DNA of 25,531 nt. Origin: a virus. Under the pieces are notes generated by a model, which saw nothing but the letters and a program-made list of their open reading frames with translations, did no database searches and was not told the origin of the DNA. Below are positions 18,249-25,531 of this stretch, one piece after another (position 1 is the stretch's first letter; each line of letters opens with the position of its first letter). The stretch lies in the IMG/VR virus record IMGVR_UViG_3300027844_000139, positions 1-25,531 of that record. The stretch is one strand, 5' to 3'. The position numbers and the translations under genes are program-made.

Positions 18249-18618
18249 TAATCAGCTCCTCTTTTGCAGGTAATATAAAAATACCTCCCTTAACTTCATG
18301 GCTAACATCAAGGCGATCCGCTTTCCCTAGACCTATACGATCTAAAATAGTTTGAGCGGCCTGTAAACGCATGTTTGCTTGCGGAATAGGCTTATCTGAG
18401 TCCATTATATCTACAAGTTTTATAGCAGCTTTAGGTGCTGACTGTGCTAAGATATTCGAGGCCAAGTCTATAATTTCAGTTTTTAATGCTTTTGTGACCT
18501 GCCAGTGTGTATTCGGAGCATACCCAGCTAATTCGGCTGCCTTCTTAGGATCACCTCCTGTTTCAATTAAGTGGTCAAGAAACCCTTTTTGTTTTAATGT
18601 TAATTCTTTTTTATCCAT
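18238..18618 (-). CDS. terS: Terminase small subunit
   Basis: This 126-residue protein would recognise phage DNA and hand it to TerL. Residues about 3-50 look like the typical TerS helix-turn-helix (LTLKQKGFLDHLIETGGDPKKAAELAGY), a helical oligomerisation region follows, and the C-terminus ends GGIFILPAKEELIIEA, a common TerS ending that may contact TerL. It is first in the leftward block and directly precedes terL-linked genes. I choose the ATG at 18618. An in-frame GTG 18 bases upstream overlaps the -10 box of the leftward promoter and so could not be transcribed from it. No ribosome site is visible, and the predicted message start is only a few bases before the ATG. Confidence 0.75.
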   Translation of the reverse strand: MDKKELTLKQKGFLDHLIETGGDPKKAAELAGYAPNTHWQVTKALKTEIIDLASNILAQSAPKAAIKLVDIMDSDKPIPQANMRLQAAQTILDRIGLGKADRLDVSHEVKGGIFILPAKEELIIEA

Positions 18619-18627
18619 TGTTTTAGT

Positions 18628-18656
18628 AGTATACACCTCGACTGGGGTTTTGTCAA
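18628..18656 (-). promoter_or_regulatory. Leftward promoter for structural block
   Basis: On the - strand, TTGACA (18656-18651), a 17-base spacer and TATACT (18633-18628) make a near-consensus sigma70-type promoter. The expected start is near 18621, only about 3 bases before the terS ATG. It shares its -35 region with the rightward promoter. Confidence 0.85.
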
Positions 18657-18672
18657 GGTTTAACTTGACAAA
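18649..18672. promoter_or_regulatory. Dyad joining the two divergent -35 boxes
   Basis: TTTGTCAAG (18649-18657) and CTTGACAAA (18664-18672) form perfect 9-bp arms around 6 bases. Both -35 boxes lie in the arms. The symmetry may be a by-product of two consensus boxes back to back, or a site where one protein controls both directions. Confidence 0.7.
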
Positions 18673-18693
18673 TCATAAACTGAGCTGTATACT
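18665..18693 (+). promoter_or_regulatory. Rightward promoter for early block
   Basis: TTGACA (18665-18670), a 17-base spacer and TATACT (18688-18693) make a near-consensus sigma70-type promoter with expected start near 18700. The first rightward gene begins at 19340, so the message would carry a leader of about 640 bases through all the repeats described below. Confidence 0.85.
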
Positions 18694-18697
18694 GTTA

Positions 18698-18717
18698 TAT
18701 GACCTACCGGGGTCATA
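18698..18717. promoter_or_regulatory. Operator-like dyad at the rightward start site
   Basis: TATGACC (18698-18704) and GGTCATA (18711-18717) are perfect 7-bp arms around 6 bases, placed right at the predicted rightward transcription start. A repressor bound there would block early transcription. No repressor gene is visible in the window. Confidence 0.6.
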
Positions 18718-18772
18718 CTAGATATATATATTAATATTAGTAGAGATATTTAATAGTCCTACTAAGTATACT

Positions 18773-18865
18773 AAGGACTTTAAAGCTCGCACTAAAACCT
18801 AGTTGACACTCGCGTTAGTCCCTACTAAAGGACTTTAAAGCTCGCACTAAAACCTAGTTGACACT
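18773..18865. repeat. Two 38-bp direct repeats with TTGACA and CTTTAAAG box
   Basis: Identical 38-base copies at 18773-18810 and 18828-18865, spaced 55 bases. Each holds GGACTTTAAAG at its start and TTGACA at its end (18803, 18858). No good -10 box follows either TTGACA at 16-18 bases. The first half recurs in related form near 23.7 kb. The copies may be protein-binding sites or secondary promoters. Confidence 0.85.
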
Positions 18866-18960
18866 TTGAAATCTCCTTAAATTGTATGTGAAGTAGTATA
18901 TCCCCCCCACGAGGGCCATGGCCTCCTGCCTACCCCTCCAAAGCCCTTCAAAGATTCCCG

Positions 18961-19035
18961 CACAAGACACCACAGATCTAGGCAGTTAGTTACAGCCACA
19001 CAAGACACCACAGATCTAGGTAGTTAGTCACAGCC
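18961..19035. repeat. Two 37-bp tandem copies, 38-bp period
   Basis: Copies at 18961-18997 and 18999-19035 both begin CACAAGACACCACAGATCTA and end with an ACAGCC block, differing at two positions. They sit in the middle of the long leader and hold no gene. Together with the next repeats they resemble an iteron-type array, as at origins or partition/regulatory sites. Confidence 0.85.
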
Positions 19036-19080
19036 CCACAAAACTAGAAAACTTCGAAGAGCTACGAAGATTCGCTGCAA

Positions 19081-19134
19081 AAGATCTTCGAAGATCTACA
19101 AAGATCCGACGCCGCCAAAGATCTTCAAAGATCT
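19081..19134. repeat. Paired AGATCTTC/GAAGATCT palindromes
   Basis: A perfect 16-bp palindrome at 19082-19097 (AGATCTTC then GAAGATCT) is followed 37 bases later by a copy with one changed base at 19119-19134. Half-sites such as CGAAGA and AAAGATC are scattered around them from 19051 to 19141. Dense, evenly spaced half-sites suggest a protein-binding array, possibly a replication origin. Confidence 0.65.
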
Positions 19135-19297
19135 GCGAAGACCTTCCGAGTGCTTACTGGTCTGGAGTTTACAAAGGAACGTTATAGACTTTAGTGGGTT
19201 GAGATATCTTCAAAGCTCTAGGAAGTCTTTAGAAAACAGCGCTCTAGTTAGTTTTTTAAATCTCCAGAGAAATAGCGTGAAGATTCCCACAAAAAGA

Positions 19298-19327
19298 TGT
19301 TAGACTAGCTGCACACAAAACAGGAAA
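19298..19327 (+). promoter_or_regulatory. Leader repeat before first rightward gene
   Basis: TGTTAGACTAG, 3 variable bases, then CACACAAAACAGGAAA recurs with the same spacing at 19607-19636 before the next gene. The AGGAAA is the ribosome site of both genes. No -35 box fits a TAGACT -10, so this is best called a shared leader/ribosome-site module. Confidence 0.6.
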
Positions 19328-19339
19328 AGCACACTACTT

Positions 19340-19546
19340 ATGATTATTTTTGACTATAAATCCAAGGAAGAGTTGGCAGCAGCAATAGGTCAGCCGCTGG
19401 CTTTTACGCAACATACGACGAACAGCATGCTTGGTGGTGCTGCTGAATATCGAGCGGACGGCGAGCTGACGGGCGCAGATCCCTACGGGCGCGAATTCTT
19501 CGCCGTTGTCACCATGAGCGATGGCCTTATATCAAAAGTGAAATAA
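19340..19546 (+). CDS. Small hypothetical early protein
   Basis: This 68-residue protein has no recognised family. It starts MIIFDYKSKEELAAAIG and ends with a short beta-like stretch (GREFFAVVTMSDGLISKVK), suggesting a small alpha/beta fold. AGGAAAA lies about 12 bases upstream of the ATG. It is the first gene of the rightward block, downstream of the long leader, and is closed by its own terminator cassette, so it may be expressed as a separate early message. Codons are richer in G+C than the surrounding non-coding DNA. Confidence 0.65.
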   Translation: MIIFDYKSKEELAAAIGQPLAFTQHTTNSMLGGAAEYRADGELTGADPYGREFFAVVTMSDGLISKVK

Positions 19547-19553
19547 TTATTAA

Positions 19554-19600
19554 CCACAACGCACCCAATCAACCCCGCTTAATTGTGGGGTTTTTGGTTT
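19554..19600 (+). terminator. Terminator cassette, copy 1
   Basis: AACCCCGC (19571-19578) pairs with GTGGGGTT (19585-19592) around TTAATT and is followed by T's. Upstream CCACAA (19554-19559) could instead pair with TTGTGG (19583-19588), which would break the terminator stem. The same arrangement recurs at 19998 and 21087. Confidence 0.85.
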
Positions 19601-19606
19601 TAGGTG

Positions 19607-19636
19607 TGTTAGACTAGTGACACACAAAACAGGAAA
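19607..19636 (+). promoter_or_regulatory. Leader repeat before second rightward gene
   Basis: Second copy of the TGTTAGACTAG / CACACAAAACAGGAAA module, with about 27 of 30 bases the same as at 19298. It supplies the ribosome site for the gene at 19646. Confidence 0.6.
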
Positions 19637-19645
19637 GAGCCAACC

Positions 19646-19990
19646 ATGACCAAGCAAACCGACCAAGAAATGCTAGACGAACATGTACAGCACATAGTTG
19701 AAATAGTCGAAACTGGTGACTACGATGATGCTATCGGTGAGTGCTGTGGATGGGACTACCTATCTAGCGCCCTCGATTATGACTGGGTGCTCCATGACGA
19801 TAAGACGCTAAAGGGCGCAAGAATCCTTGTGTCTTTTGGCGGACCTAATATCTGGATAAACACGGTCACGGCGCAGGTCGAGGGCTATTGGGGAAGCTCG
19901 TCCGTTGTGCGCCATTATCGCAACGATGCGCTAGGTCTTGCGGACAAAGTAGCCAAATTATATGCCATAGCGGAACCGAACACTTATTAA
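19646..19990 (+). CDS. Acidic hypothetical protein with FGGPNIWINT motif
   Basis: This 114-residue acidic protein has a helical N-terminal part (TDQEMLDEHVQHIVEIVE), then a likely beta-rich core around ARILVSFGGPNIWINTVTAQ and VEGYWGSSS, and a C-terminal helix (DALGLADKVAKLYAIAE). The core motif resembles phage and plasmid hypothetical proteins I have seen, but I cannot name a function. It shares leader and terminator sequences with the gene before it, so the two look like parallel cassettes. AGGAAAG lies 9 bases before the ATG. Small acidic early proteins often bind and block host factors; nothing here proves it. Confidence 0.7.
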   Translation: MTKQTDQEMLDEHVQHIVEIVETGDYDDAIGECCGWDYLSSALDYDWVLHDDKTLKGARILVSFGGPNIWINTVTAQVEGYWGSSSVVRHYRNDALGLADKVAKLYAIAEPNTY

Positions 19991-19997
19991 ACCTAAC

Positions 19998-20040
19998 CCA
20001 CAACGCATCCAACGAACCCCGCACGATTGTGGGGTTTTTT
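19998..20040 (+). terminator. Terminator cassette, copy 2
   Basis: AACCCCGC (20015-20022) pairs with GTGGGGTT (20029-20036) around ACGATT, followed by T's. The competing pair CCACAA (19998-20003) with TTGTGG (20027-20032) is kept. It closes the gene at 19646. Confidence 0.85.
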
Positions 20041-20058
20041 GGTTTTATAGAAAGACAA

Positions 20059-20350
20059 ATATGGTATCTCCACTACCTCTCCATTATTGAGTGTATCTTA
20101 TTCCTGATAGGTACTATAATATTGGTGTTGTTGGTGACGGGCATGCGGAGCAAATCCCCCCCAGAGCGAACCAACTAGGTCAGGGCCGGATGGCGCACCT
20201 CTCGAAGCGAGTATTTATTACTTGCAGGAAAGAGTGAAGCCGGATGGGTGGCGGCTGGCTGAAGGACAAAGCGGGTACGAGTGCGCCGAGTCTGATACCT
20301 TACAAGGAATCCGCACGACAAGTAGGCTCTATCACTGCGTACGCAAATAA
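20059..20350 (+). pseudogene. Frameshifted small membrane-anchored protein
   Basis: Just after the terminator a frame encodes a strong membrane segment (SIIECILFLIGTIILVLLVTG, 20080-20142) and then stops at 20178. A second frame, one base later, is open from 20138 to the stop at 20348-20350 and reads like protein (EASIYYLQERVKPDGWRLAE). The two overlap at a run of seven C's (20156-20162). Removing one C there would join them into a membrane anchor plus a domain of about 65 residues with two Cys. The start is also unclear: the only ATG (20061) is out of frame. It may be a decayed gene, an assembly error in the C run, or +1 frameshifting at CCC. It is not a confident call. Confidence 0.4.
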
Positions 20351-20551
20351 GACCAAAACCATGATGAAGCTCTGGTTATAATTCTACTCCATAATATCTG
20401 CGGCATGGCGAATCAAGAATGCGTTAGGCTTCACGCTTGAACGCTGCACGGGTTTGGCTGTGCCGGGGTTTTATGTGTTTAATGTAGAGAACATTTTTTA
20501 AGTGTTCTCTATCCTGAGCATCATTAACCTAGAAAAAAAGAGAGCAATACC
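20351..20551. other. Gap before the 158-residue gene
   Basis: No confident gene. A frame from ATG 20361 stops after six codons (TAA at 20379), but stays open again to 20501, reading FYSIISAAWRIKNALG and on; it may be a broken gene. An inverted repeat at 20485-20511 is listed separately. Ribosome-site-like GAGAG lies just before the next start. Confidence 0.4.
20485..20511. promoter_or_regulatory. Perfect 9-bp inverted repeat upstream of early gene
   Basis: TAGAGAACA (20485-20493) and TGTTCTCTA (20503-20511) flank nine bases rich in T. No T run follows, so it is not a standard terminator. It lies 41 bases before the ATG at 20552 and could be an operator or an RNA hairpin. Confidence 0.6.
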
Positions 20552-21028
20552 ATGATTCATACGAGTATAAAAACAACCGAAGAATTCAGCAGCAAGCTTC
20601 GTGGCGGGATCAGGCGGGACGCAAACCAAAGGAGCTTCTTTGCTGACGCGGCTGCGTTTGTATTTAACCAGGTAGAAGCGCACGGCAATGGTACACCGGC
20701 TACGGCGCTACGCAATGCACTACCAGTTATGGTGTGCAGACCGAAAGGGTTGACCGTAAAGAACCTTGATGTGTTCATCGAAAGGCACACTGGCCTTTCA
20801 TGGGATATGACCGATAAGGTATACAACAAAAATAAAGGCTCATCAGACTTGCAAGCACTGCCGGTAGACCATTGCCGATTTTGGGAATACGAAAGCGAAG
20901 AAGATGCGCCTACGTTTACCGATACCGAGAAATTGCGCAACTACCTAGTTAAGCGCAGCGGCAAACTAAGCATAGATGAAGTACTTGTGATCGTCTCGGA
21001 AGTATACGAAGTCAAGAAAGTGGCCTAG
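20552..21028 (+). CDS. Hypothetical early protein
   Basis: This 158-residue protein has no recognised domain. It begins MIHTSIKTTEEFSSKLRGGI, with a mixed helical first half and an acidic C-terminal part (TDTEKLRNYLVKRSGKLSIDEVLVIVSEVYEV) that looks helical. No signal peptide, membrane segment or metal motif is seen. It is closed by terminator cassette copy 3, so it forms a one-gene unit with the inverted repeat upstream. G+C content is higher than in the AT-rich repeats around it. A cytosolic accessory or host-interaction protein is the most that can be said. Confidence 0.7.
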   Translation: MIHTSIKTTEEFSSKLRGGIRRDANQRSFFADAAAFVFNQVEAHGNGTPATALRNALPVMVCRPKGLTVKNLDVFIERHTGLSWDMTDKVYNKNKGSSDLQALPVDHCRFWEYESEEDAPTFTDTEKLRNYLVKRSGKLSIDEVLVIVSEVYEVKKVA

Positions 21029-21086
21029 TCTGTTAGCTAAGACAGTAGCACCAAGCGCAGAAGCATTAAATAAATAATTATTTAAA

Positions 21087-21130
21087 CCACAACGCACCCA
21101 ATCAACCCCGCATTCTTGTGGGGTTTTTTT
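21087..21130 (+). terminator. Terminator cassette, copy 3
   Basis: AACCCCGC (21104-21111) pairs with GTGGGGTT (21118-21125) around ATTCTT, then a run of T's. CCACAA (21087-21092) again can compete for TTGTGG (21116-21121). The upstream 19 bases match copy 1. Confidence 0.85.
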
Positions 21131-21156
21131 GGTTTTACACAGAAGAGGAGTAGACA

Positions 21157-21474
21157 ATGACAGATAGCGAACGTACAGCAGCACTCACGGCGTTTGATCA
21201 CGCCTTTACTACGTACACGATCTGGTGGCGCGATGGCGGTGGTCGAGAGGAAGGCTTAACTTACGCCGAGATGGTCGAGGCCGCTGACAGGTTTGGATTC
21301 GCTGCACTACCAAGGTCTAAACGCAGTGAGGAAACGTATATTCTGGAGGGCGACGCGGAAGTGACCGACCAGGCATTGCTAACTGAACGGTCGGATGGCG
21401 TGGTGGGTGGGTGCTTTTCTACAACCAGCGGAAGCTGTGCTGACTTACGGCGTGAAGCGCCACGGCCTCAATAG
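21157..21474 (+). CDS. Hypothetical early protein ending at hairpin element
   Basis: This 105-residue protein has no recognised family. Residues 1-45 look helical (TERTAALTAFDHAFTTY-like start, then a WWRDGGGREEGLTYAEMVEAA stretch split by Gly), and the end (SCADLRREAPRPQ) is low in structure. GAGGAG is placed 7 bases before the ATG. The stop codon lies within the sequence GGCCTCAATAGG, which is also the left flank of the second hairpin pair at 22621. Insertion of the element may therefore have supplied the present end, and the last residues may not be original. Confidence 0.6.
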   Translation: MTDSERTAALTAFDHAFTTYTIWWRDGGGREEGLTYAEMVEAADRFGFAALPRSKRSEETYILEGDAEVTDQALLTERSDGVVGGCFSTTSGSCADLRREAPRPQ

Positions 21475-21484
21475 GTCCACTAAA

Positions 21485-21523
21485 CGGACGACAACCTATA
21501 TATACCTTATAGGATGTTGTCCG
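21485..21523. repeat. Hairpin element copy 1, core inverted
   Basis: A 16-pair stem with one mismatch and one G-T pair around a 7-base loop. Read on the - strand, it matches copy 4 at 35 of 37 central positions, whereas its left flank (CCACTA) is in the same orientation as in the other copies. No T run follows. Confidence 0.85.
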
Positions 21524-21538
21524 GTTAAGGCCCACTAT

Positions 21539-21579
21539 GGTGTCAGCATCCTATAGGATACTTATAGGATGTTGACACC
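21539..21579. repeat. Hairpin element copy 2
   Basis: A 17-pair stem, perfect but for one G-T pair, with a 7-base loop. Outer stem GGTGTCA/TGACACC differs from the other copies but stays paired. CCACTA precedes it. It contains ATCCTATA and TATAGGAT as in copy 1. Confidence 0.85.
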
Positions 21580-21669
21580 TTAAGCGTAAAAGAAATGGGT
21601 TATTTCTATTGCGCCCCCGCTTTTTTTAACGTAACCTACTAAGAGTAACTAAGTAAAAAGGAATTGATA

Positions 21670-21831
21670 ATGAAACGATCCCAAGCAGATCAAGTAGAAA
21701 TTAATTTTCTAGCTTTTGAGGACTACACAGAATGGTTTGAGTATGCGCTCAACGAAGACGAGGAGCTTTCGGAAATACTTTTTGAGCTACGGCAAGCCGC
21801 TGACCAGTTCTGGACTCCGGTAAGCTGCTGA
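21670..21831 (+). CDS. Small acidic hypothetical protein (53 residues)
   Basis: A 53-codon frame starts at an ATG with AAGGA 8 bases upstream. The product is acidic and aromatic, with FLAFEDYTEWFEYALNEDEE followed by a helix (ELSEILFELRQAADQFW). That composition is unlike random sequence and fits a small soluble protein, perhaps a protein-mimic or inhibitor. It is followed 16 bases later by a tiny membrane protein gene and then the HhH protein gene, forming a probable three-gene operon. No family is recognised. Confidence 0.65.
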   Translation: MKRSQADQVEINFLAFEDYTEWFEYALNEDEELSEILFELRQAADQFWTPVSC

Positions 21832-21847
21832 CCAGGGGGATGCACGA

Positions 21848-21943
21848 ATGCTAGTAATTATAATTATTATAGTGGTTGTAGCGGTTGTATTATTTGGCGG
21901 CTACCTTGCGAACATTTCACAGCTTTGGAAGAAGGATAATTAA
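21848..21943 (+). CDS. Tiny single-pass membrane protein (31 residues)
   Basis: The frame encodes MLVIIIIIVVVAVVLFGGYL followed by ANISQLWKKDN. It has one strong hydrophobic helix and a short basic tail, so the tail would face the cytoplasm by the positive-inside rule. AGGGGGA lies about 8 bases upstream of the ATG, and the stop is 4 bases before the next gene's ATG. Both support a real gene despite the size. A role in the host membrane (lysis, superinfection or signalling) is possible; none is shown. Confidence 0.6.
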   Translation: MLVIIIIIVVVAVVLFGGYLANISQLWKKDN

Positions 21944-21947
21944 AAGT

Positions 21948-22583
21948 ATGCTAAAACTATCAAAGGCGGCGAAAAAATCTAGCAATCCATTCGCCCAGCA
22001 TAACCCGCTTATCAATAGATATGCTCAGGAAGGCTGGGAAAACCTAGTCCGTATGATTATGATGGCAGTACTATCCATCCAGCAGCCTTGGCATAACGTG
22101 GGCGTGCAGATGTATGACTATAAAGACAAGGGTCTAGGTTCTCGATTTGTTTGGGGAAATAAAAGGAAGACACTCCTTTGGCTTGCTACAAATGGTGAGC
22201 AACTATACTACGAAGCTATTGAGTGCTTGGAATTCACAGGTAAAAAGAGATCTCTTGCACTTATGAATGTGTTCCTGCAAGTACCGGGTTTAGGATTGGC
22301 GAAGGCTGGTTTCTGTTGTCAACTATTCGCAGGCTGCGTAGGTTGTATTGACGTTCACAACCTACGACGATTGTCAATCCCTGCAACAGTGCTAACCTTG
22401 GACAAGAAGGCAAGCGATGTAACAAAGCAGAAACGTATTGAAACATACGTTGATGCATGTTCGCAAAGGCGATGCAGTTGGTTATGGAATAGCTGGTGCG
22501 ATTTGATAGCCAAGAAAGAGCCTAATAGATGGCGAGATGGCGAGCATGTATCGTCAGTACATTTTGAATACCTAACAGGATAA
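21948..22583 (+). CDS. Helix-hairpin-helix protein, DNA-glycosylase-like
   Basis: This 211-residue protein has a helix-hairpin-helix loop, VPGLGLAKAGF (112-122), followed 22 residues after its Pro by Asp135 in CIDVHNLRR. That layout mirrors HhH-GPD base-excision glycosylases such as endonuclease III (LPGVGRKTAN ... VDTH), where the Asp is catalytic. The Lys of endonuclease III is not aligned (Ala118; a Lys is one residue later), so activity may differ or be lost. There is no C-terminal iron-sulphur Cys cluster of the usual spacing, though the core is Cys-rich (FCCQLFAGCVGC). I choose the ATG at 21948 with AAGGA upstream; an in-frame start at 21885 would overlap the membrane-protein gene. Confidence 0.6.
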   Translation: MLKLSKAAKKSSNPFAQHNPLINRYAQEGWENLVRMIMMAVLSIQQPWHNVGVQMYDYKDKGLGSRFVWGNKRKTLLWLATNGEQLYYEAIECLEFTGKKRSLALMNVFLQVPGLGLAKAGFCCQLFAGCVGCIDVHNLRRLSIPATVLTLDKKASDVTKQKRIETYVDACSQRRCSWLWNSWCDLIAKKEPNRWRDGEHVSSVHFEYLTG

Positions 22584-22585
22584 CA

Positions 22586-22693
22586 ATGAAACGTAAACTT
22601 AATATATTCAGTATTTTGTGGCCTCAATGGCCCACTAACCGAACAACATCCTATAAGGTATATATAGCTTCTTGTTCGGTTAACGGACCATAA
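22586..22693 (+). CDS. Possible 35-residue ORF running through a hairpin element
   Basis: A frame from ATG (22586) just after the HhH gene reads MKRKLNIFSILWPQWP and continues through hairpin copy 3 as SYKVYIASC before stopping. The Sel1 gene ends through a related copy in the same frame (TYNVYIDSC). It has no clear ribosome site. It is most likely a chance or decayed frame, kept because of that parallel. Confidence 0.25.
   Translation: MKRKLNIFSILWPQWPTNRTTSYKVYIASCSVNGP
22636..22682. repeat. Hairpin element copy 3
   Basis: TAACCGAACAA pairs with TTGTTCGGTTA (11 bp), then an unpaired 4-base step and CTATA/TATAG. CCACTA overlaps its left edge. The left flank GGCCTCAAT(A/G)GG-like sequence matches that of copy 1. 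Confidence 0.85.
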
Positions 22694-22705
22694 GGAGAAC
22701 CACTA

Positions 22706-22747
22706 CGGGGACAACATCCTATAAGGTATATATAGGTTCTTGTCCCG
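22706..22747. repeat. Hairpin element copy 4
   Basis: GGGACAA pairs with TTGTCCC, with an unpaired CATC/GTTC step and CTATA/TATAG inside. It is preceded by CCACTA. It is the left boundary of the duplicated sequence that flanks the Sel1 gene. Confidence 0.85.
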
Positions 22748-22785
22748 CCAAGAAAAAATAGAGCACAAGAAATGAATAACAGCAA
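22718..22785. repeat. Left copy of direct repeat flanking the Sel1 gene
   Basis: This 68-base segment, from the core of hairpin copy 4 through AAGAAAAAATAGAGCACAAG to AATGAATAACAGCAA, recurs at 23366-23431 with a few changes and a two-base deletion. The two copies are 648 bases apart and enclose the Sel1-repeat gene. Confidence 0.85.
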
Positions 22786-22806
22786 TCAAGAGTGAGAAAG
22801 TAAGAG

Positions 22807-23421
22807 ATGAAAAGAAAGATAACGAAAGGCAACGTCTTTAAGGATATCGGTTTTACTGATGCGGAAGCTATTGCATTGGCAATGCGTGTCGATTTGACGG
22901 TAGAAATTGAAAACAACAATCAAGAGCATGCAATTGTTCAATACAATCTGGGTGTGATGTACCGCAACGGAGACGGTGTCCCACAGGACCATAAGACTGC
23001 CCTGAAGTGGTACACCCTTGCGGCTGAACAAGGGCATGCAGATGCCCAGTTCGGTCTGGGTGTGATGTACGACAGCGGACGAGGTGTCATACAGGACGAT
23101 AAGGCTGCACTGAAGTGGTACACCCTTGCGGCTGAACAAGCGCAGGACTCTGCCCAGTATAATCTGGGCTGGATGTACGACCTCGGACGAGGTGTCATAC
23201 AGGACGATAAGGCTGCACTGAAGTGGTACACCCTTGCGGCTGAACAAGGAAACACATTGGCCCAGTTAAAACTGGGTGGGATGTACGAGAAAGGACGAGG
23301 TGTCATACAGGACGATAAAATTGCAGCGGAGTTATATGCGCTTGCTGAGGCTCCCTGGTGGAAAACCTATAATGTATATATAGATTCTTGTCCCCAAGAA
23401 AAAATAGAGCACAAGAAATGA
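22807..23421 (+). CDS. Chimeric Sel1-repeat protein with HigA-like N-terminal fragment
   Basis: This 204-residue protein has four Sel1-like repeats of 36 residues from about 46 to 182 (pattern LGVMYxxGxGVxQDxKxALKWYTLAAEQ), a fold that binds other proteins. The repeats are nearly identical in DNA, so they duplicated recently. Residues 7-35 (KGNVFKDIGFTDAEAIALAM then RVDLTVEI) look like the start of HigA/XRE-type antitoxins, but the DNA-binding helices are missing. The last 20 residues are encoded by the duplicated hairpin element. There is no signal peptide, unlike most bacterial Sel1 proteins. The ribosome site is weak. It may be a functional adaptor or a recombination by-product. Confidence 0.75.
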   Translation: MKRKITKGNVFKDIGFTDAEAIALAMRVDLTVEIENNNQEHAIVQYNLGVMYRNGDGVPQDHKTALKWYTLAAEQGHADAQFGLGVMYDSGRGVIQDDKAALKWYTLAAEQAQDSAQYNLGWMYDLGRGVIQDDKAALKWYTLAAEQGNTLAQLKLGGMYEKGRGVIQDDKIAAELYALAEAPWWKTYNVYIDSCPQEKIEHKK

Positions 23422-23431
23422 ATAACAACAA
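23366..23431. repeat. Right copy of flanking repeat with hairpin remnant (copy 5)
   Basis: It carries the hairpin core (CCTATAATGTATATATAG) but the left outer stem is lost, then the same tail as at 22748-22785. It encodes the C-terminus and stop of the Sel1 protein. Confidence 0.8.
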
Positions 23432-23451
23432 CGAACTAAAAAGGTCTACTC

Positions 23452-23688
23452 ATGTCTACAAAAATTAGAGCTAGATATTTACACGCAAGCGAGAGCTTGG
23501 TTAATGTTATTGTAGGGTATGCTATAAATCTGCTGTTAGTGTACATATTATTACACGCATTGGGTTACCAGATCAGGCTACTAGAGAACGCTGGTATGGG
23601 ATTAGTGATTGCCTGCTTCGCGTTTGCAAGAGGCTATTGCATCCGACGAATATTCAATAAGATTGTTCAAAGAGCTTACAACAAGTGA
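23452..23688 (+). CDS. Small two-helix membrane protein (DUF7220-like)
   Basis: This 78-residue protein has two hydrophobic helices (about residues 15-38, VNVIVGYAINLLLVYILLHAL, and 45-60, GMGLVIACFAFARGY) and a basic end (CIRRIFNKIVQRAYNK). The order, an ES-x-x-N-V-x-VGYAIN start, then a turn, then R-x-Y-x-x-RR-x-F, recalls small membrane proteins of the DUF7220 type found in phages; the family name is from memory. AAGG lies 9 bases before the ATG. It is followed by the 77-bp repeats. Function unknown. Confidence 0.65.
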   Translation: MSTKIRARYLHASESLVNVIVGYAINLLLVYILLHALGYQIRLLENAGMGLVIACFAFARGYCIRRIFNKIVQRAYNK

Positions 23689-23694
23689 CTATCT

Positions 23695-23867
23695 TCTACT
23701 AAGGTCTTTAAAGCTAACATGGTAGCAATCAATTAATAAATATATATTTAAAAAGAAAAGGATAATAACTATCTACTAAGGTCTTTAAAGCTAACATGGT
23801 AGCAATCAATTAATAAATATATATTTAAAAAGAAAAGGATAATAACTATCTACTAAGGTCTTTAAAG
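23695..23867. repeat. 77-bp tandem repeat, two full copies and a 19-base start
   Basis: Identical units at 23695-23771 and 23772-23848 are followed by the first 19 bases of a third. Each begins TCTACTAAGGTCTTTAAAG and ends in an AT-rich tail. The opening matches the repeats in the control region (18771, 18825). The partial third copy runs into AGAGAC and GTCTCT arms (hairpin-like, 23866-23891). No gene is present. Confidence 0.9.
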
Positions 23868-24044
23868 AGACTTGAGTCTATCATGTCTCTCTAAAGATGT
23901 CAAGAAATATATTTAAGATAAATAATATAGCGAGGTAATCACAGTATGTGTACATAAAGTTAGTTGATGCGCTTGACAGCGCCCTTTGACATGTGTTAAG
24001 GTATGTGTCACACCAACCAACCAACCAAGGAAGAGTAATTTAAA
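23868..24044. other. AT-rich gap before the 62-residue gene
   Basis: It holds two TTGACA sequences (23973-23978 and 23986-23991) without good -10 boxes at the usual spacing, and four tandem CCAA units near 24013-24028. A weak promoter is possible; no gene is seen. Confidence 0.5.
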
Positions 24045-24233
24045 ATGCAGACTATGTACAGAAAACGGACCCAACGTAATCGTTATGAACTGTCGAATGG
24101 CGAATGCTATGTTGGCTTTCATTTTGGCAAGCGATCACTCTATTTTAAAAAGCAGAGATCTCGACCGTGTGGAATTCGTAAACTAAGGGATGTAAATGGA
24201 ATAGAAACTATTGACTGCGATGTACTCGCGTGA
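24045..24233 (+). CDS. Small basic hypothetical protein
   Basis: This 62-residue protein is rich in Arg/Lys (MYRKRTQRNRYELSNGE, KRSLYFKKQRSRPCG) and has a likely beta-hairpin core (ECYVGFHFGKRSLYF). AAGGAAGAG lies 9 bases before the ATG, which supports the start. No family is recognised. The basic surface would suit nucleic-acid binding. A longer frame starting at 23986 in another phase is a shadow. Confidence 0.6.
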   Translation: MQTMYRKRTQRNRYELSNGECYVGFHFGKRSLYFKKQRSRPCGIRKLRDVNGIETIDCDVLA

Positions 24234-24350
24234 GATAAGATGATTGAATAAACAGGCCACACGGCGAATGGATGTACATCTACGCCGTTGCACAAGTTGG
24301 TCACCGGATGCATGTAACCGGGCATTTAATTTAAAACAGGGAAAATGATT

Positions 24351-24554
24351 ATGACTGTGGAACCTAGTGTAAAGTCTACTGAACTCTCAGAATTTTTTGA
24401 GGTATTCTTTGGCCGTACTACTGCTATTAAGAATCAAATATGTACGTGTTGTGGTGGACGTGCAATTTCTTTTTTGAATAAATTGAGCCGCCGTGAATAT
24501 AGTATTTCAGGACTCTGCCAAGAGTGTCAAGGCGAGGTATTTGATAATGACTGA
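24351..24554 (+). CDS. Small zinc-ribbon-like protein
   Basis: This 67-residue protein has two Cys pairs, CTCCG (about residues 31-35) and CQEC (about 56-59), spaced as in a zinc ribbon. Between them is FLNKLSRREYSISGLCQECQ, a pattern I recall in conserved phage hypotheticals. A role in binding nucleic acid or protein is likely but not specific. I choose the ATG at 24351: AGGGA is about 9 bases before it, but only 3 before the ATG at 24345. The stop overlaps the next start (ATGACTGA), so the two genes are coupled. Confidence 0.7.
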   Translation: MTVEPSVKSTELSEFFEVFFGRTTAIKNQICTCCGGRAISFLNKLSRREYSISGLCQECQGEVFDND

Positions 24555-24831
24555 TTTAGATTTACACGCTGAGATAATGCTAGGTACGTGTACCTTTCGA
24601 GACACAATGGAAGAACTTTGGGGACAGTTATGGGGTAATCATTGGGCCTGCAAAGCTCCCAATGTCTTTGAAGATTTCCTTAGCTTTACCGAGTCTAGCG
24701 TCTTAGAGACAGGTTCCCGCCTCCCTCCCAGGCATTGGGGCGATGAAGCTCAAAGGCAATTAGATTCAAAATTGATGGATGAGTTCAAAGAATACTTCAT
24801 TAAGTATGTAGAATACAGAGCAACTAACTAA
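24547..24831 (+). CDS. Hypothetical protein coupled to zinc-ribbon gene
   Basis: This 94-residue protein starts inside the end of the zinc-ribbon gene (8-base overlap), which suggests the two products are made together. It is acidic and helical, with many aromatics (EELWGQLWGNHWACKAPNVF) and a C-terminal helix (LMDEFKEYFIKYVEYRA). No family is recognised. The longer frame starting at 24493 would overlap more and lacks a reason to be preferred. Confidence 0.65.
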   Translation: MTDLDLHAEIMLGTCTFRDTMEELWGQLWGNHWACKAPNVFEDFLSFTESSVLETGSRLPPRHWGDEAQRQLDSKLMDEFKEYFIKYVEYRATN

Positions 24832-24855
24832 CTATAAATAATTTAGGAAAAATAT

Positions 24856-25531
24856 ATGAGCCATGAAATTGAAGAGATCAACGGTGCATTTCAAATGGCC
24901 TATGCAGGCGAGAAGCCTTGGCACGGCTTGGGTACATCTGTAGGCAACGATTTACTACCAGCCGAAATGATGCAAGTCGCTGGTTTAGATTGGACTGTTC
25001 ATAAAGAGGATCTGGTGACATCAGCAGGCCATCCTATCCCAGATAAAAAAGGACTAGTCAGATCTTCTGACAATAAAGTTCTTGACATAGTCGGGAAAGA
25101 CTGGAACCCAGTTCAAAATAGTACAGCATTCTCTTTCTTCGATGAGTTCATTCGAGAGGGCGGTGGCATGCAAATGCATACTGCTGGTTCACTAAGGGGC
25201 GGTCAAATTGTATTTGCTTTGGCGAAGGTGGACGATAGCTTTGAGCTATTTGGTGGTGATAAAGTAGAGTCTTATCTTCTCTTCACAAACCCTCACAAAT
25301 TCGGGCGAGCTATTGATGTACGGTTCACTCCGATCAGAGTCGTATGTGATAACACGTTGGCCTTCTCCCTGAGTCAGCACGATAAGAATGTCGTAAAATT
25401 AAATCATACAAAAGAATTTCGAGCAGAAGACGTGAAGGAAATGATGGGTATTGCATCCTTCAAGCTAAACAAATACAAAGAAATGGCGGAGTTCTTAGGA
25501 TCTAAGCTGTATAGCACAGACAAGGTTGTTC
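24856..25531 (+). CDS. DUF932-type phage/plasmid protein, 3' end beyond window
   Basis: An ATG with TAGGAAA about 6 bases upstream opens a frame of 225 complete codons without a stop. It starts MSHEIEEINGAFQMAYAGEK, then PWHGLGT, and has GKDWNPVQN, SLRGGQIVFALAKVD, a Phe/Asn/Pro turn (YLLFTNPHKFGRA) and the signature FTPIRVVCDNTL. That set is what I recall for DUF932, a family of phage and plasmid proteins of unknown function. Some members lie near replication or recombination genes. The C-terminal part is missing because the window ends. It is the last gene of the rightward block. Confidence 0.85.
   Translation, partial: MSHEIEEINGAFQMAYAGEKPWHGLGTSVGNDLLPAEMMQVAGLDWTVHKEDLVTSAGHPIPDKKGLVRSSDNKVLDIVGKDWNPVQNSTAFSFFDEFIREGGGMQMHTAGSLRGGQIVFALAKVDDSFELFGGDKVESYLLFTNPHKFGRAIDVRFTPIRVVCDNTLAFSLSQHDKNVVKLNHTKEFRAEDVKEMMGIASFKLNKYKEMAEFLGSKLYSTDKVV

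Follow-up and report, generated by a model that had tools for sequence, protein, structure and literature searches.

The hairpins in the virus record analysed here (25.5 kb over its whole length, hereafter the window) probably represent a facultative, relocating quasi-palindromic DNA repeat that has been shaped by recombination in a shared core and by template switching during replication. Compensatory stems are commonly read as proof of RNA structure, but in this natural case from uncultured marine phages they appear as swapped blocks, together with mosaics, one-arm changes and core inversions. The repeat, with both filled and empty sites, is thereby named in the main regulatory region of HMO-2011/HTVC103P relatives.

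Hairpins of the window virus

The window contains four full hairpins and one partial copy (Table 1), which fall in register as repeat family D2, and CCACTA lies before the four full copies as stated in the preliminary description. The core CCTATAWNGTATATATAG has four mismatch-free matches in the window (21496 on the minus strand; 22650, 22718 and 23366 on the plus strand) against 0.25 expected from shuffling, and the region 18501-25531 contains six strong hairpins, four of them the elements, where 30 dinucleotide shuffles gave 0.03 on average. RNA fold z-scores are about -6, -6.5, -4.1 and -2.2 for copies 1-4, and -0.07 for copy 5, from which the left arm is missing. Copy 1 matches copy 4 at 35 of 37 bases when reversed and at 26 of 37 directly, and its spacer and core are inverted between colinear flanks, as is characteristic of template-switching quasi-palindromes. 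The earlier claim of a hairpin family with one inverted core is hence confirmed, and the left flank GGCCTCAAT, described as common to both pairs, is found before copies 1 and 3.

Of the five copies proposed, only the four full hairpins stand. Copy 5 marks the left, truncated edge of a direct duplication of 66-68 bp (22718-22785 versus 23366-23431; 92.6%), composed of the right half of copy 4 and downstream DNA, and is therefore not an independent copy. This repeat flanks a Sel1-repeat gene (22807-23421), and the last residues of the ORF run into it. Two contigs of the same virus, L007 (whose end falls inside copy 5) and L092, carry the hairpins they cover without any difference from the window, and assembly errors are therefore unlikely. 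The four copies of the window comprise one of each of the stem codes described below, and L224/L226 hold the same four.

Table 1. Positions of the repeat copies and associated features in the window
Feature	Coordinates	Strand	Remarks
Divergent sigma70-type promoter pair	18628-18693	late/terS - (18656-18628); early + (18665-18693)	Consensus matches only; hairpin home in relatives, empty here
Left flank GGCCTCAAT of copy 1	21464-21472	+	Found at copy 3 and in the related phage L008 as well
Copy 1	21477-21531	-	Stem code X: CCGGAC on one arm, other arm with one base changed; core inverted relative to flanks; hairpin 21481-21527
Copy 2	21530-21586	+	Stem code Y (GGTGTC/GACACC); near-perfect palindrome; hairpin 21539-21579
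Small second hairpin and T tract 3' of copy 2	21583-21630	+	Common to bacterial copy L167, which aligns with copy 2 over about 100 nt, this hairpin included
Left flank GGCCTCAAT of copy 3	22620-22628	+	
Copy 3	22630-22686	+	Stem code Z (CCGAAC/GTTCGG); hairpin 22636-22682
Copy 4	22698-22754	+	Stem code V (CGGGGAC/GTCCCG); hairpin 22706-22747
Copy 5	23366-23393	+	Right hairpin part only, no stem; left edge of duplicated segment 23366-23431 (from 22718-22785)

The terminase, portal and capsid of this virus find their matches among marine podovirus-like phages. Of the annotated phages, Pelagibacter phages HTVC115P, HTVC103P and HTVC104P match best, with 65-67% identity in the terminase, and HMO-2011-type phages come next. 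Structural genes lie on the minus strand and early genes on the plus strand, both read from the divergent promoter pair. The back-to-back TTGACA promoters form a TTGTCAAG/CTTGACAA dyad that is common to the phage group (19-112 nt box to box inclusive). Other repeats were also observed, namely three similar intergenic terminator-like units (AACCCCGC...GTGGGGTTTTTTGG; 19550-19602, 19994-20046 and 21083-21135; 79-83% alike over 53 nt) and tandem repeats with CTTTAAAG at 18773-18865 and 23695-23867 (units of 55 bp and 77 bp). A conserved protein of 200-230 aa encoded at 21885-22583 carries a helix-hairpin-helix-like motif (VPGLGLAKAGF) and has relatives in 75 viral loci, with no Pfam or PHROG match.

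Distribution of the repeat and its home site

Further copies in related genomes, which the preliminary description had proposed to look for, were found by pattern and covariance-model searches in about 25 viral contigs, all from terminase relatives of the HMO-2011/HTVC103P-like window virus, and in one contig of a bacterial metagenome-assembled genome (MAG). The first exact patterns returned mostly the window virus and chance matches, giving the wrong impression of a family nearly private to this virus, which was overturned when right-arm and left-arm patterns widened it. Early scans yielded L008, a related phage with two copies upstream of terS, and the MAG contig L167, while the further carriers (L197-L233) came from scans with either hairpin half. 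Most copies score 44-72 bits with the covariance model, whose E-values are rough and whose palindromic matches occur on both strands. Most loci were retrieved with element-derived patterns from fragmentary records, so that counts of copies and orientations are biased and do not estimate prevalence. With the elements of the window, L167 and L226 as queries, blastn gave no match in collections of annotated phages and plasmids.

The repeat measures about 47-57 bp, with partly conserved flanks, and its home is the divergent spacer between terS and the early promoter, where 0-4 copies occur singly or in tandem arrays. In nearly all other viral loci with both terS and a scored hairpin, the hairpin lies at most 0.4 kb upstream of terS, the exceptions being L008 (0.3-0.55 kb) and L230 (1.1 kb). 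Two whole records of 50.9 kb and 37 kb have copies at the home site only. In the window the home site is empty, and the copies are found at a distance of 2.8-4.8 kb, in the spacers of early genes; L230 and the MAG contig also have copies away from home.

Loci with and without the element could also be compared. Full or half hairpins occupy the home site in 25 loci, whereas 84 hairpin-free terS loci (from protein searches blind to the element and from annotated phage records; one is a contig of the window virus) keep the promoter region. Hairpin-free relatives have the divergent TTGACA boxes as well, together with a conserved block lying further upstream, but their spacer is shorter: the block is 54-237 nt from the early promoter in 57 of 58 such loci, and as much as 375 nt from it where four hairpins are present. 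In L205, L208, L209 and L210 the hairpin is placed between the two -35 boxes, which are 109-112 nt apart compared with 19-102 nt elsewhere. TTTAAAG palindromes are also seen between hairpins in relatives. In a TerS tree supported by few columns, and with the window itself counted as a carrier, the hairpin falls within one clade and requires at least three, most simply five, gains or losses. Moreover, a unit of 77 bp comprising hairpin and flank (window 22611-22682, L008 335-259) is 87% identical between non-homologous places. Such non-homologous positions, the 0-4 copies at the home site and the bacterial copy support the earlier suggestion of mobile palindromes.

The bacterial copy (L167:146-202) lies beside a PAS-domain gene on a contig that was assigned to a MAG of the Pseudomonadales and ends about 150 bp away. 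It is the only copy in that MAG. No copy was detected in 97 relatives of the MAG by pattern, in 57 by model, or in 390 further genomes sampled from the order. Synteny of the PAS gene and the element is lacking in the relatives of the MAG, so that the comparison gave no empty counterpart of this locus. A search for phage contamination, run without a positive control, gave no terminase match in the MAG. The copy may represent either a host link or a mis-assembly.

Stem codes, core inversion and possible functions

Four stem codes recur among 35 distinct hairpins: CCGGAC (X), CCGAAC (Z), GGTGTC (Y) and GGGGAC (V). Both arms carry the same code in 25 of them (X 11, Z 8, Y 5 and V 1), while the arms are unmatched in the other 10, about six of which join two codes (L208, L209, L228, L230 and L233, as well as L198, which has one additional change). 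The raw sequence shows two other joins, X/Y in L219 and Z/Y in L227, and L216-L218 are half hairpins. Most of the 35 copies have CTAA as the 5' flank, which pairs with the 3' flank, and the majority of non-Y hairpins show the same internal mismatch, CATCC/GAAGC. The same core was found in both orientations relative to terS across relatives, as the preliminary description had proposed to check. L197 and L215 share an orthologous site with colinear flanks on both sides, where the cores agree at 28 of 41 positions directly and at 37 of 41 when reversed. Half-sites are conserved across distant relatives, and the cores and the sequences between hairpins are conserved too. The core (ACAACATCCTATA...TATAGCTTCTTGT) is conserved even between phages with TerS only 60-80% identical, which suggests either constraint or recent spread.

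The differing but paired stems were previously taken to point to selection for the fold, which is not established by these data, since the stems are recurrent block codes with unmatched and mosaic arms. A change of one arm alone is seen in L208 (Z/X) beside its near-identical sister L210 (X/X) and weakens the claim further, although a recombinant would give the same pattern as an unhomogenised intermediate. When the template is switched between the arms of inverted repeats, the arms are homogenised and the spacer between them is inverted (PMC8604942); compensatory changes in stems can arise in this way too (PMC8794818). Compensated stems therefore need not mean selection for the fold. As to covariation, 84% of cells pair and 37 cells are changed on both sides against 16.2 in shuffles, with a score also above shuffles, whereas the number of covarying pairs (seven) equals that of shuffles (6.7).

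We prefer the relocating, recombining DNA repeat as the explanation. Copies would multiply and be lost by recombination in the shared core, which would produce the mosaics and the changes in copy number. The DNA polymerase, switching template within the palindrome, would copy one arm onto the other and invert the core, and so give rise to the inverted cores, the near-perfect palindrome of copy 2 and the paired stem changes. The element and its flanks may occasionally relocate to a new intergenic place, and the way in which they would move is among the least certain points. Some observations are at odds with this scheme: pure homogenisation would remove the recurrent CATCC/GAAGC mismatch, the excess of cells changed on both sides would be equally expected from selection for the fold, and neither a mobilising enzyme nor a clean target-site boundary was found in the hairpin-bearing records. 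Equally among the least certain points is whether the sites are simply tolerated or serve, facultatively, to control the early/late region at the level of DNA.

With some, though lesser, probability the elements may instead be a regulatory or replication site in DNA, i.e. an array of dyad half-sites (stem code, CAA, a 5-mer and TATA) to which a protein of the phage or the host would bind. The array would belong to the divergent early/late control region and might be extruded as a cruciform. Their concentration in the divergent promoter spacer, the half-sites kept across distant relatives, and their occurrence in either core orientation and on either side of the early -35 box are consistent with such a site, but 84 relatives keep the promoter region without it, the copies of the window and of L230 lie apart from the promoter pair, and mosaic and half hairpins persist. 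Core flips would be neutral in this case because a dyad reads the same both ways. It is rather unlikely, although conceivable, that the elements form a phage control array placed at the divergent early/late promoters or close to them. Such an array would consist of 0-4 dyad sites that have four interchangeable stem codes and a core free in its orientation; the number of copies and the mixture of codes would tune the switch from early to late and would alter rapidly through template switching and recombination.

A structured RNA in the early transcript, with leader or intergenic hairpins serving as RNase III sites, mRNA stabilisers or antiterminators, is decidedly unlikely. The hairpins do fold stably, lie downstream of the predicted early promoter in the window and most relatives, and have stem changes on both sides; however, in the four loci with the hairpin between the -35 boxes it is outside both predicted transcripts, the core occurs in either orientation, and Rfam covariance models gave no match at gathering or relaxed thresholds. 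In 24 of the 35 copies the fold is more stable on the early strand, but this tracks core orientation and not G-U use, leaving no strand preference beyond it; G-U pairs as a marker of the transcribed strand gave no clear answer. Hence the regulatory RNA mentioned earlier is not favoured, and the position outside predicted transcripts together with the free orientation leads us to favour a function that would act at the level of DNA, for which a protein-binding site or cruciform is a candidate. In some phages binding sites adjoin the terminase genes, and the home site is directly upstream of terS, but a packaging (pac/cos) or TerS-binding array seems very improbable given the 84 terS loci with no element upstream, the splitting of the window copies over two places 2.8-4.8 kb from terS, and the copy on a bacterial contig.

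Comparison with known systems

Among known repeats, REP/BIME sequences, which TnpA-REP (RAYT) mobilises, are likewise short extragenic palindromes with an internal stem mismatch, often arranged between genes in pairs or tandem arrays (PMC8266576). They differ in that a conserved tetranucleotide, usually GTAG, is found immediately 5' of the REP palindrome, whereas the elements described here are without GTAG and their CTAA flank pairs into the stem. REP/BIME also reach high genomic copy number, compared with one copy in the MAG and 1-4 full copies per phage genome here, and the present elements reside in phages. The Y1 transposase domain (PF01797) was detected in none of 10 records including the MAG (G001), among which the phage records may be incomplete, while control genomes were positive. 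Integron attC sites were considered only, as neither an integrase nor a cassette structure was seen.

TIGR arrays (PMC12045711) are tandem stem-loops in phage genomes too, and the CCA beside each stem here resembles box C. However, they have paired variable guide spacers of 8-12 nt, whereas the inter-hairpin sequences and cores of the present family are conserved; a Nop/Tas gene (PF01798) was found in none of nine fragmentary hairpin-bearing records, with a positive control. The PeSL cassettes of T4-type phages (Arbiol 2010 and Comeau 2014, as summarised in PMC4503421) are likewise small cassettes with a stem-loop, linked in phage genomes to the shuffling of genes, with which the single duplication of copy 4 and downstream DNA around the Sel1 gene may be compared. 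According to that summary PeSLs combine an early promoter with a stem-loop, while a promoter scan gave no match inside our hairpins, which also have no terminator T run, and a scan for intrinsic terminators (G+C-rich stem followed by a T run) flagged none of them, in line with the earlier remark that they are not standard terminators.

The quasi-palindromes generated by template switching (PMC8604942 and PMC8794818) share with our elements the inversion of the spacer between the arms and, apparently, the homogenisation of arms and the compensatory changes. These precedents concern individual loci in yeast and in RNA genes, where the spacers are short, whereas the phage elements constitute a dispersed, tandem and multi-code family with a longer inverted core.
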